The notes under the pieces were generated by a model. The model saw only the letters and a program-made list of their open reading frames with translations. It ran no database searches and had not been told where the DNA came from. A program made the translations under genes and the position numbers. DNA of 33,705 nucleotides from an uncultured Pelagibacteraceae bacterium (GTDB lineage: Bacteria > Pseudomonadota > Alphaproteobacteria > Pelagibacterales > Pelagibacteraceae): contig CACEPH010000007.1 in NCBI GenBank assembly GCA_902561465.1, positions 1 through 33,705 on the forward strand, given 5' to 3'. Below are positions 3 to 4,679 of this stretch, one piece after another (positions within the stretch are counted from its first letter, which is position 1; the number at the start of each line of letters is the position of its first letter).

Positions 3-446
3 CCATCCATAAGCGATTATGAAAGGGAATCCCTAGTTAAAGCTGTTGAAACAGAAATGAGAACTAAATTTCCCAAGAGTGCAAAAAAGATTTTAGGTGG
101 AAAAAGCGCAAAAGCCCAAGAGTTTCTCGAAGAAATTTTTCATTCATTAGAAAAAGAATTTGATTGGTCGAAAAATTGTGTTGGTAGCAAAGTAAAAGTG
201 GGTGGCAGCATGATTAGTGGAAAAGAATATGTTTGTTGGTATATTTCGTATAAAAATGATGATGGATATTCAACGGGTTTGCACTATCGACAAAAAACAC
301 CAAAAGATGATCCTTATTTAGACGTTGAATATAGAAAAGTAGGCAAAGAGTTTGAAAAAGATAAAGAAGTGAAACTATTTCCAGTTGAATTAAAAGATGA
401 TGCCTTAAATCTTTATAAAAATTTCTTAACTAAAACAATAAAATAA
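3..446 (+). CDS. Hypothetical protein, 5' end truncated by window edge
   Basis: The listed ORF starts at ATG 57, but the frame is open back to base 3 (PSISDYERESLVKAVETEM...), so the true start may lie upstream of the window. No family recognised. Confidence 0.6.
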   Translation, partial: PSISDYERESLVKAVETEMRTKFPKSAKKILGGKSAKAQEFLEEIFHSLEKEFDWSKNCVGSKVKVGGSMISGKEYVCWYISYKNDDGYSTGLHYRQKTPKDDPYLDVEYRKVGKEFEKDKEVKLFPVELKDDALNLYKNFLTKTIK

Positions 447-528: not shown

Positions 529-595
529 GGCGCAGGCTTGGAAAGCTTGTGTACTGTCAAAGGTACCGTGGGTTCGAATCCCACTCTCTCCGCCA
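529..595 (+). pseudogene. 3' fragment of tRNA-Ser(GGA), probable attachment-site remnant
   Basis: ggcgcaggctTGGAAAGcttgtgtactgtcaaaggtaccgtgggTTCGAATcccactctctccgCCA contains the anticodon arm with a GGA loop, long variable arm, T arm, and 3' acceptor strand plus CCA. No matching 5' acceptor/D-arm (GGAGAGAG...) lies upstream. Confidence 0.8.
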
Positions 596-1129: not shown

Positions 1130-2413
1130 TTATATGCACTCAACAACACCATTTGCAACTAATTTAACTTTAGTTTCTAGACCGTATGCTGGAGTTTCAT
1201 CAAGTTCTAATACTTCTATTTTTTTTTCTAAAACATTGTAATTAGATTTTGGTAAACAAAGTTCTTTTGCTTTAATTTCAAAATCTGCTTTTAATTTATC
1301 CATAACTTTTTTGCCTCGCTTTGTATTACTTTCGTACTGACTAATTCTAACCCATTTTCTTGCAACAATTTCAATCTTACGTATATCTTTCCCAGAAAAA
1401 TCTTTAGCTTGCGTTTCTTCTTTATCTTTACATTTAACAATAGATCCTTCCGGACTAACACAATCACCCACACCCTGTTCTATTCCAGAATTAAAACTAC
1501 CTATGTAAGCACTTCCATCAGAATATGTAAAAGTTCCTTTTCCGTGTCGTTTTCCATTTACAAATTCTCCTTCATATTTTTTGCCATCAGGGTAAAATAA
1601 AGTTCCTTCTCCATGTAATTTATCATCTTTAAATTTTCCTAAATATTTTCTACCATTTTTCCATACTTTAGTTCCGTTACCATGACTCTTACCATTTTGC
1701 CATTCGCCGTAATATTTATCTCCGTTTGCCCAAATAAAAGTTCCATATCCATGTGGTTCAAAATTTTTAAAATCACCTAAATATCGTGCTCCACCAGGAT
1801 ATATTGATATTCCTTTAATAATTTTTCCATTTTTAAACAATCCTTTATATTTATGTCCAGACCCAGCTTTGTAAGAACCCTTACAATTTGTCCATTCTTT
1901 AATATCGTTACCCTGACATGTAAATACAGATTCTTGCTCTTTTTTTAATTCTTCTTGTGCTTTTAAAATTTCTTCTTCTTCTTTATTAACTTTTGCTTTT
2001 TCTATTTTTTCTTTATCCCAATCACTTTTAACGTCCATGCAATAACTAACTCTTTTTCCGTTTAGTTTAAAAATCTCCATGTCAATTCCACTTTCTTTTT
2101 TATATTCTAGTTTAACTACAGATTTTGATTTGGAGTTTAAAAAATATTGATAATAGATTTCCTCACCTTTCGCGCTTTTTATTTTTTCACTAATAATTTT
2201 GTTTTTTTCTATTGATTTTATTTTGTCAGAAAAATTTTGAACTGTCCCATCGCCCGTTTTTAACTCTACATCAATGGTGTTCTTTTTAAGATTTATTGTA
2301 TAATTTCCTACTACCGCATTACTAATTTTACATTGTTTAAAAAAGTACATATCTGCAAAGCTGGTATTACAAAGAAAAACGCTTAGTAAAATTATTATAA
2401 AAAAATTTCTCAT
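1130..2413 (-). CDS. MORN-repeat protein with N-terminal signal peptide
   Basis: 427 aa. Tandem MORN-type repeats (YLGDFKNFEPHGYGTFIWANGDKYYGEWQNGKSHGNGT...YEGEFVNGKRHGKGTFTY); hydrophobic N-terminus. Confidence 0.85.
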   Translation of the reverse strand: MRNFFIIILLSVFLCNTSFADMYFFKQCKISNAVVGNYTINLKKNTIDVELKTGDGTVQNFSDKIKSIEKNKIISEKIKSAKGEEIYYQYFLNSKSKSVVKLEYKKESGIDMEIFKLNGKRVSYCMDVKSDWDKEKIEKAKVNKEEEEILKAQEELKKEQESVFTCQGNDIKEWTNCKGSYKAGSGHKYKGLFKNGKIIKGISIYPGGARYLGDFKNFEPHGYGTFIWANGDKYYGEWQNGKSHGNGTKVWKNGRKYLGKFKDDKLHGEGTLFYPDGKKYEGEFVNGKRHGKGTFTYSDGSAYIGSFNSGIEQGVGDCVSPEGSIVKCKDKEETQAKDFSGKDIRKIEIVARKWVRISQYESNTKRGKKVMDKLKADFEIKAKELCLPKSNYNVLEKKIEVLELDETPAYGLETKVKLVANGVVECI

Positions 2414-2484
2414 TTTAATTGAACAGTATAATAACGTGTTTTGCTTTAAACAAATAATTGATTTAAATGATATATATTTTGCTT

Positions 2485-2490
2485 TATAAT
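2485..2490 (+). promoter_or_regulatory. Candidate -10 box (TATAAT) upstream of microORF
   Basis: Consensus TATAAT about 43 bp before the ATG at 2533. No convincing -35 at 17 bp. Confidence 0.35.
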
Positions 2491-2532
2491 TTAGACTGAT
2501 TCGCGATTTAATTAACTAATAGGAGGCATATT

Positions 2533-2583
2533 ATGGTTTGGGTAGCTGCAGCAGTAGTAGTAATTTGGTACATGAATAAGTAA
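2533..2583 (+). CDS. Putative 16-aa hydrophobic microprotein MVWVAAAVVVIWYMNK
   Basis: ATG...TAA preceded by AGGAGG (2521-2526) with a 6-nt spacer. It lies in an otherwise unexplained intergenic gap and ends just before the convergent gene's stop at 2584. Confidence 0.6.
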   Translation: MVWVAAAVVVIWYMNK

Positions 2584-3312
2584 TTAAGATATTCTTCTTA
2601 TCCCAATTACTTTTAAATTTGTCGTTTTGTAAATTCTATCAATAGTTTTTTTGATAGGCATTATTAATGTTTTCTTTTTTGGTCCGTAAGCATGGATCAA
2701 AGTGTGTTTTGAAGTAGCAATAGCTACATGGCCTTTCCAAAAAATTAGATCGTTTTTCTTTATATTTTCTATTTTAATTCTTTTCTTAAAATACCTAATT
2801 TGATCTTTGGTATCTCTTGGGCAAAATTTATTATTAAAGTTAAAAGGCAACTGCACAAGCGCTGAACAATCGATACCACTATAATGCTTGCCTCCCCATT
2901 TATATCTTATATTGGTAAATTTTTTTATATTTTCAAAAATATTTTTTGTCTTATAATTAATTTTTTTTATATCTTTTTTTTTAATCCAAAAATTGTCAAA
3001 TTTATAATAATTTTTTTTACTTTCAGTAACTTTAATTTTAGATCCAAAACTAAGTTTTTTTTTAATTTTAATACCTGGTCTTGAATATATTATTGCACTT
3101 AAACTGAAAACTTTATGAGTGTTTTTTTGATTAGGATAAAAATTTTTTTTTTTAATAAAACCTTTATAATTATCTTGGTCATTTTTAATTTTGATCCATG
3201 ATTTATTTTTTTTTAATATTTTGAATGTTTCCCCATATAAAAGTTGTGTGGAGAGTTCGGATTTTATACTCTTTTTTTTATATACGTTTATTATAGGTAG
3301 ACTACTTCTCAC
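2584..3312 (-). CDS. NlpC/P60 (C40) family cell-wall peptidase with SH3-like N-terminus
   Basis: GIDCSALVQLPF catalytic Cys region, later GHVAIA and HAYG; SH3-like N-terminal half. Confidence 0.85.
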   Translation of the reverse strand: MRSSLPIINVYKKKSIKSELSTQLLYGETFKILKKNKSWIKIKNDQDNYKGFIKKKNFYPNQKNTHKVFSLSAIIYSRPGIKIKKKLSFGSKIKVTESKKNYYKFDNFWIKKKDIKKINYKTKNIFENIKKFTNIRYKWGGKHYSGIDCSALVQLPFNFNNKFCPRDTKDQIRYFKKRIKIENIKKNDLIFWKGHVAIATSKHTLIHAYGPKKKTLIMPIKKTIDRIYKTTNLKVIGIRRIS

Positions 3313-4679
3313 TTCAATTTGAGTTTATCTCTTATAAACCACAAGCAAATTAAAGAAGGGATTACCATAATGGCAGTTATTACAAAAAATATTCCCCAAT
3401 CACCATTTAACCAATCAACCATTGCTCCCGATGAAGCTGCAAGAGTTGTTCTGCCAGCTGTTCCGATTGAAGCAAGTAAAGCATATTGAGTAGCTGTATA
3501 TGTTCTATCAACTAACATAGAAATAAAGGCTACAAAAGCAACAGTCGCAAACGCAGCAGCAATATCATCAAAAATTACAGCTACCGCAAAAAGCAATTCA
3601 GATTTTCCTGTCCAGGCAAGCAAAGAAAACAAAAGATTTGTAGAGGCCATTAATATTCCAGATACAAACATTGCTTTTATGACACCTGAGCGAATTGCAA
3701 ACAAGCCTCCGAGAAGAGTAAAAATAACTGTCGTTATCCATCCCAAGCCTTTAGAATAAAGAGCAATATCTGATTTTGAAAAACCTATTTCTTTATAAAA
3801 TACTATGGACATTCGTCCAAGGAAAGCTTCTCCAATCTTAAACAGAAATACAAATCCTAAAATTCCTATAGCAATTTTAAATCCATTTTTTTTAAAAAAA
3901 CTTATAATGGGGCCTGCAATAGTTCCGCTAACCCACGCAACTGATTTTGTTGCTACGTTAGAAGATCCCAGTCTTTCTTCTATCATTTTATCAGTTCTTT
4001 TTTGAGATTCTTGTCTTTCTGTTGGTTGAGGCTCATGAACAAACATAAGACCGATGTTGCAAGCTATAATAACTATCCCAAGAACTAAAAAGGTAATTTG
4101 CCAATAATTTTGAAATCCTGATTGTTGGAAGTATTCAGCAGCGTTCAGGGCTATTACGCCTCCTAACTTATATCCCGTCCACCAACCAACCACTGCCATG
4201 GCAGCACCAGCCTGCATCGATTTTCCTTCATCTTGTCCAATCTGTTCAATCCTTAAGGCATCAACAGTGATATCTTGAGTTGCTGATGCAACGGCAATAA
4301 TCAATCCAATTGTAATTACTAACGCTAGATTTGCCGTTGGATCTACTACACTCCAACATACTAAACTAATTAAAATAATTAGTTGCATTGTTACAATCCA
4401 ACCACGACGGTGACCAATTTTACTAGTTAGCCATGGGATACGAATTCTATCTATTATTGGGGCCCACAAATAATTAAATGCATAAACAGCAAATATTAAT
4501 CCTGCCCAACCTATAGTACTACGACTTAAACCATCTTCTTTTAACCAAAGACTTAAACTGCTTCCTATCAACACCCATGGAAATCCACTTATAATTCCAA
4601 GCAAAAGAATTCTTATCATCCGTTTATCAAAATAAACAGAAAAGGTTTCAGACAATGTTTGTTTTTTATATATTTCCAT
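3309..4679 (-). CDS. AmpG-like MFS permease
   Basis: 456 aa polytopic; LLGIISGFPWVLIGSSLSLWLKEDG and ATQDITVDALR are characteristic of AmpG. 4-bp overlap with the NlpC/P60 gene. Confidence 0.85.
   Translation of the reverse strand: MEIYKKQTLSETFSVYFDKRMIRILLLGIISGFPWVLIGSSLSLWLKEDGLSRSTIGWAGLIFAVYAFNYLWAPIIDRIRIPWLTSKIGHRRGWIVTMQLIILISLVCWSVVDPTANLALVITIGLIIAVASATQDITVDALRIEQIGQDEGKSMQAGAAMAVVGWWTGYKLGGVIALNAAEYFQQSGFQNYWQITFLVLGIVIIACNIGLMFVHEPQPTERQESQKRTDKMIEERLGSSNVATKSVAWVSGTIAGPIISFFKKNGFKIAIGILGFVFLFKIGEAFLGRMSIVFYKEIGFSKSDIALYSKGLGWITTVIFTLLGGLFAIRSGVIKAMFVSGILMASTNLLFSLLAWTGKSELLFAVAVIFDDIAAAFATVAFVAFISMLVDRTYTATQYALLASIGTAGRTTLAASSGAMVDWLNGDWGIFFVITAIMVIPSLICLWFIRDKLKLK

Follow-up and report, generated by a model that had tools for sequence, protein, structure and literature searches.

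KdpF, CydX, AcrZ, and MgtS are single-pass micropeptides of about 29–50 aa that tune membrane complexes, and a known partner generally accompanies them or is their target. WALP peptides are synthetic models in which a short Ala/Val/Leu helix is flanked by Trp. IbsC of E. coli has 19 aa, and 15 residues with 10 hydrophobic ones suffice for toxicity (PMC8309996). Promoters activated by GcrA carry the extended motif YGAKTCG (quoted in PMC7987155). Caulobacter promoters that are activated at mid-cycle have their GANTC sites between −35 and −10 rather than at the start site (PMC4287350). Pelagibacter/SAR11 is devoid of CtrA (PMC2877005), and the published SAR11 methylome shows methylation of GANTC throughout the genome (PMC9516812).

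Few groups of marine bacteria are as abundant as SAR11, and because its genomes are streamlined, a conserved gene of 16–21 codons is unlikely to be idle there. Here we describe such a gene in a 33,705-nt stretch of DNA from an uncultured Pelagibacteraceae bacterium, hereinafter designated the window. With a probability of roughly 60%, judged from sequence comparison, it is a real tiny gene that belongs to a Pelagibacteraceae family, forms a transcription unit by itself, encodes a membrane micropeptide, and is probably gated through GcrA/CcrM methylation. The family would be absent from standard annotation because its members are below the length that gene callers report. Models in Pfam, NCBIfam, and PHROGs do not match the two 20-aa members queried, a literature search found no SAR11 study of smORFs or of this peptide, and the family is previously unnamed.

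Sequence and conservation of the micro-ORF

The features of the locus are as follows.

529–595, plus strand: 3' part of tRNA-Ser(GGA), about 67 nt, without the 5' part; aligns to the 3' three quarters of intact tRNA-Ser(GGA)
1130–2413, minus strand: MORN-repeat protein, divergent upstream neighbour (Pfam PF02493, 1e-26)
2485–2490, plus strand: −10 hexamer TATAAT, at a similar distance in most orthologues
2498–2502, plus strand: GATTC, matching the GANTC target of CcrM-type methylation, where transcription is predicted to start; 8/8 in the genus, 27/37 family loci
2521–2526, plus strand: Shine–Dalgarno (SD) sequence AGGAGG with a 6-nt spacer (CATATT); AGGAGG, AGGAGA, or AAGAGG across 8/8 orthologues
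2533–2583, plus strand: 16-codon ORF, coordinates including the stop, MVWVAAAVVVIWYMNK*; read from the sequence, with seven genus orthologues and purifying selection
2584–3312, minus strand: SH3 and NlpC/P60 peptidoglycan endopeptidase, convergent neighbour (Pfam PF00877, 2e-13; PF08239, 5e-11)
3309–4679, minus strand: AmpG-family muropeptide MFS transporter, next after NlpC (NCBIfam TIGR00901, 7e-113, above cut-off)

The ORF, the AGGAGG, its 6-nt spacer, and the upstream TATAAT had been proposed in a first-pass annotation, and all are borne out by the sequence; the TATAAT is confirmed at 2485–2490, and its end is 42 nt from the ATG. The same annotation called the AGGAGG conspicuous because no other intergenic copy had been seen before a start codon in the window. 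The latter observation is right, as the two further window matches to AGGAGG-N4-10-ATG (22833, minus strand; 29186, plus strand) each lie within a long gene. Across the whole genome, however, AGGAGG-N4-9-ATG has 27 matches versus 36 for the reversed-pattern control, so the SD match alone is not significant and its rarity was rejected as evidence for a gene. The window could accommodate 686 ORFs of 12–25 codons, 10 of which have a strong SD; among the ATG-starting ORFs of these 10, the 2533 ORF has the highest hydrophobicity. It stands above chance because it is conserved, not because of the SD alone.

Used as a query against 148 relatives, the 16-aa peptide matches exactly one place in each of eight same-genus genomes, with 56–100% identity. 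All eight orthologous ORFs, including that of the window, are free of internal stops and frameshifts. The SD is AGGAGG in five, AGGAGA in two, and AAGAGG in one, and every ORF is convergent with the same NlpC/P60 gene, 3–7 nt from it. An alignment of the eight intergenic regions shows diverging flanks around three conserved stretches: the ORF, the SD, and a short block upstream. Pooled pairwise comparison of the orthologues gives a pS of 0.57 and a pN of 0.12 (pN/pS ~0.21). Specifically, in G000, G019, and G009, the three most informative genomes for this comparison, the peptide is identical and each pair has 4–5 synonymous and 0 nonsynonymous differences. The two results together indicate that selection acts on the peptide. 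Frameshifts or SD loss among close relatives had been set beforehand as grounds for abandoning the proposal of an unannotated membrane micropeptide; with open orthologues, an SD that is kept or nearly kept, and this pN/pS, the proposal survives and gains support at the sequence level. Among genus genomes with a readable NlpC end, a family member is located there in 11, a number that includes the G011 array and the copy MSGLEWIGIAAIVYVVWQVAS recognised by eye in G022; in two others (G001 and G005), different genes occupy the place.

Since strong SDs by themselves occur no more often than chance across the genome, a chance ORF within a conserved promoter or RNA element has to be weighed. The synonymous-biased change, the fixed length amid divergent flanks, and the use of alternative Ser codons all contradict it. 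The invariant Ser2 of the MSGxE branch uses AGY codons in 27 cases and TCN codons in 9; many loci are closely related, so that neither these nor the other counts of family loci are independent. Rfam has no match in the window, by which an RNA family was rejected, and none apart from tRNA in 14 related loci. The probability of a chance ORF is practically negligible. The short ORF, strong SD, and short leader would also suit a leader peptide or attenuator, in which translation matters and the product does not. However, the next gene is convergent and none is co-directional in 8/8 orthologues and in the g2 genus, which largely refutes this reading; moreover, amino acids are kept while codons change, and no attenuator-like fold is present. 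We give it a very slim chance. On the conservation evidence, the 2533 ORF is almost certainly a translated protein-coding gene.

Family, arrays, and genomic neighbourhood

Profile searches, together with inspection of gene neighbourhoods, place the ORF in a wider family of 16–21-aa, SD-led, Trp/Tyr-rich single-helix peptides, including MSG[WLF]EILAVVAVIYW.., MEWVVLAAVVWYVWSQQ, and MWWAIAAVAVAYWWYTNQ. At the equivalent spot, other genera carry longer relatives, e.g., MSGLEIAAVVVVIYWLMNK. The family was assembled by a search with one longer relative, then with a profile, and then with a DNA pattern run against 84,980 genomes of named species. The profile has matches in 45 of 246 genomes, and all those with E below 0.1 are in Pelagibacteraceae. 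Each short family-like match in the named species collection is likewise from Pelagibacteraceae, and the matches from other organisms are unrelated, mostly longer ORFs. Within the collections searched, the family thus defined by sequence is found only in Pelagibacteraceae. A rule-based scan of 746 kb yields 52 matches, essentially all family members, versus 2 in reversed sequence; the loci scanned were picked for having matches, so only the reversed-sequence control rate is unbiased. The profile search of g3, g5, g9, g10, g12, and f2 genomes gives no match, which does not prove absence because the same search misses the G022 copy. A phage origin was considered and rejected: the SGxE pattern in four viral contigs corresponds to three longer proteins and one unconvincing 24-aa ORF lacking the family C-terminus, the g1 pattern has no match in viral contigs, and a 20-aa member has none in phage records.

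Family genes occur singly or in arrays of two to five, and each array gene has its own SD. G003 has a tandem pair encoding two identical peptides, G048 (L205) and G063 (L206) have three-gene arrays, G056 (L175/L207) has five genes in about 0.8 kb, and G011 (L178/L209) has five genes over about 2.8 kb, one of them on the opposite strand. The last four hold three to five different micropeptide genes, and in these arrays MEWAVVALVVWYVWSQQ occurs as two identical copies in tandem, spaced at a period of 132 nt. The first-pass suggestion of additional copies therefore holds for relatives, while in the window's own genome, which is 63% complete, profile searches, the only source for its copy number, detect only this copy. 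In G027 (L155/L208), a further SD-led 23-aa hydrophobic ORF, MGADILLISMGALIVLTWIWNNA, lies 136 nt downstream of a family member and is perhaps a more distant relative. The g4 genus has a second recurrent family location (L072, L096, L118, L168, L169, and L172), adjoining a TRAP-type transporter permease gene in L072, L096, and L118; the upstream sequence is alike in all six loci and has no GANTC.

The neighbourhood of the gene includes traces of tRNA-Ser(GGA). No intact tRNA was detected in the window. Similar 3' copies of tRNA-Ser are present at 529–595 and in G022, and they are probably what is left of attachment sites where islands entered at the tRNA. In the window, the region that runs from this remnant (529) to about 2400 and holds the DUF805 and MORN genes is accordingly island-like. 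L123 has the compact order intact tRNA-Ser(GGA), micro-ORF, NlpC. With remnants or intact tRNA beside its loci, the family gene is often an island-edge neighbour. A functional tie to NlpC/AmpG was judged weak and set aside: g4 and g6 members lie elsewhere, away from NlpC, and the family has no constant partner gene. At G017:C1:287005-287725, in one of the genus genomes, the NlpC/P60 gene beside the locus appears frameshifted or broken. An ORF at window positions 3–446, open at the window edge, has no Pfam match.

The family peptides have a hydrophobic core of 11–15 residues, a hydrophobic moment of 0.07–0.15 (very low amphipathicity), aromatic residues at one or both ends, and a polar N/Q/K C-terminus. 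This composition points to a single short membrane helix, and the peptide is very probably inserted in the membrane. Phenol-soluble modulins are tandem tiny genes, and the tandem family genes, each with an SD, resemble them in this respect, as would befit a secreted or surface peptide with a signal or membrane-active function. However, the family peptides are uniformly hydrophobic with the low moment given above, have no leader, and adjoin no dedicated exporter, leaving secretion a slim chance.

In the main rival reading, the peptide would act like a type I toxin of the IbsC/Sib kind, depolarising the membrane and being held down by an antisense RNA. Such toxins are hydrophobic peptides under about 60 aa with a single membrane helix; the family peptides fit this description and match IbsC in size and hydrophobicity (16–21 aa, one predicted membrane helix, an 11–15-residue hydrophobic core). 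Tandem near-identical copies occur, the gene often adjoins the tRNA-Ser(GGA) integration site, and arrays and tRNA-island edges are expected of such modules. Against it, the antisense promoter score downstream of 61 ORFs is 8.08 versus a background of 8.09, a comparison with little power since the background in AT-rich DNA is high. The window mRNA is unstructured (z = +1.3), and four of five folded mRNAs are not more stable than shuffles, the other having z = −3.7; a structured mRNA with a sequestered SD is common, not universal, among type I toxins. The SD and spacer of the family look ordinary and exposed. Between G048 and G063, the promoter block, ORF, and ~40 nt downstream are conserved at 88–98%, but further downstream the DNA falls to 58–78% for two of the three array genes. 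We consider a toxin unlikely, if well ahead of the other rivals.

The promoter and its GANTC site

The first-pass annotation missed a feature of the promoter, a GANTC site between the −10 hexamer and the SD. In the window, it is the GATTC within the heptamer TGATTCG (2497–2503). Its presence in 8/8 window orthologues and 27/37 family loci compares with about 7.5% expected from local density. In an unbiased ranking of gapped motifs, GANTC is the first upstream motif in the genus (8/8), and in 12 tRNA-Ser/NlpC-locus loci of other genera it is second only to the SD (10/12). In most loci, the −10 hexamer precedes the site by 5–10 nt, which puts the site roughly where transcription is predicted to begin. 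Genomes differ in the central base (GATTC, GAATC, GAGTC, and GACTC) and agree in the flanking G-A and T-C, a pattern compatible with a GANTC enzyme, and TGATTCG is found in either orientation, as expected of a palindromic methylation site. The extended form YGAKTCG fits 21/37 family loci. A type I toxin leaves this conservation unexplained. An AT-rich block resembling TAATTGATTTTAAT (window 2450–2490; L205:4659–4700) precedes the −10 region by about 21 nt; common to the g1 genus and g6 arrays and too far for a usual −35 box, it is possibly a regulator site.

GcrA is present in 52/60 relatives and the RAMA domain of CcrM in 47/60. The window's own genome has a RAMA match, and gcrA was not found in that genome, which is 63% complete. 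Most family members away from the tRNA-Ser/NlpC locus lack GANTC, as do several array copies. A global TATAAT-GANTC regulon was rejected, since TATAAT-N3-10-GANTC is not enriched over the control in 31 genomes. Unlike in mid-cycle-activated promoters, GANTC in family loci is mostly downstream of the −10 hexamer rather than between −35 and −10. Because of the GANTC-less members, the lack of genome-wide enrichment, and the placement unlike that in Caulobacter, we infer regulation by methylation, with support from the sequence, rather than report it as a result. The odds that the promoter of the 2533 ORF responds to GANTC methylation appear about even.

Proposed role and comparison with known systems

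In the reading that we prefer, a membrane micropeptide gene probably gated by GcrA/CcrM, a small transcription unit of its own would make the peptide, with transcription presumably starting at the GANTC site. CcrM methylation and GcrA binding would couple peptide production to chromosome replication, and the peptide would enter the inner membrane as one short helix. Most likely, it would be a membrane-embedded regulator or act on the envelope, produced at a cell-cycle set point; an envelope or division role specifically is doubtful. A broader picture is possible, though we lean against it: the peptides would be a family of the shortest conserved membrane proteins, confined to one lineage and arrayed in some genomes, with transcription switched by GANTC methylation at the start point, giving direct epigenetic replication-coupled control without CtrA. 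If GANTC acts as in other Alphaproteobacteria, the gene would be a concrete candidate GcrA/CcrM target in a CtrA-less lineage and a test bed for the minimal size of a functional membrane protein.

The SAR11 family shares with the Ibs/Sib type I toxins its length, hydrophobicity, intergenic location, and several copies per genome. It differs in being Trp/Tyr-rich and in its conserved GANTC promoter; no shared sequence motif is seen by eye, and no antisense RNA signature was detected in a promoter test of low power. Like KdpF, CydX, AcrZ, and MgtS, the peptides have one short hydrophobic helix and a polar tail and are overlooked by gene callers, but they are only 16–21 aa long and are without a constant partner gene. 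With the GcrA/CcrM-controlled promoters of ctrA (P1) and mipZ, the family has in common a σ70-type promoter with GANTC, often in the YGAKTCG form, whereas the SAR11 site is at the predicted start site instead of between −35 and −10 and its regulation is inferred. The likeness in build to WALP is the Trp-flanked short Ala/Val/Leu helix, e.g., MWWAIAAVAVAYWWYTNQ; in contrast to these synthetic models, the SAR11 peptides are natural, genetically encoded, and have a polar N/Q/K end.
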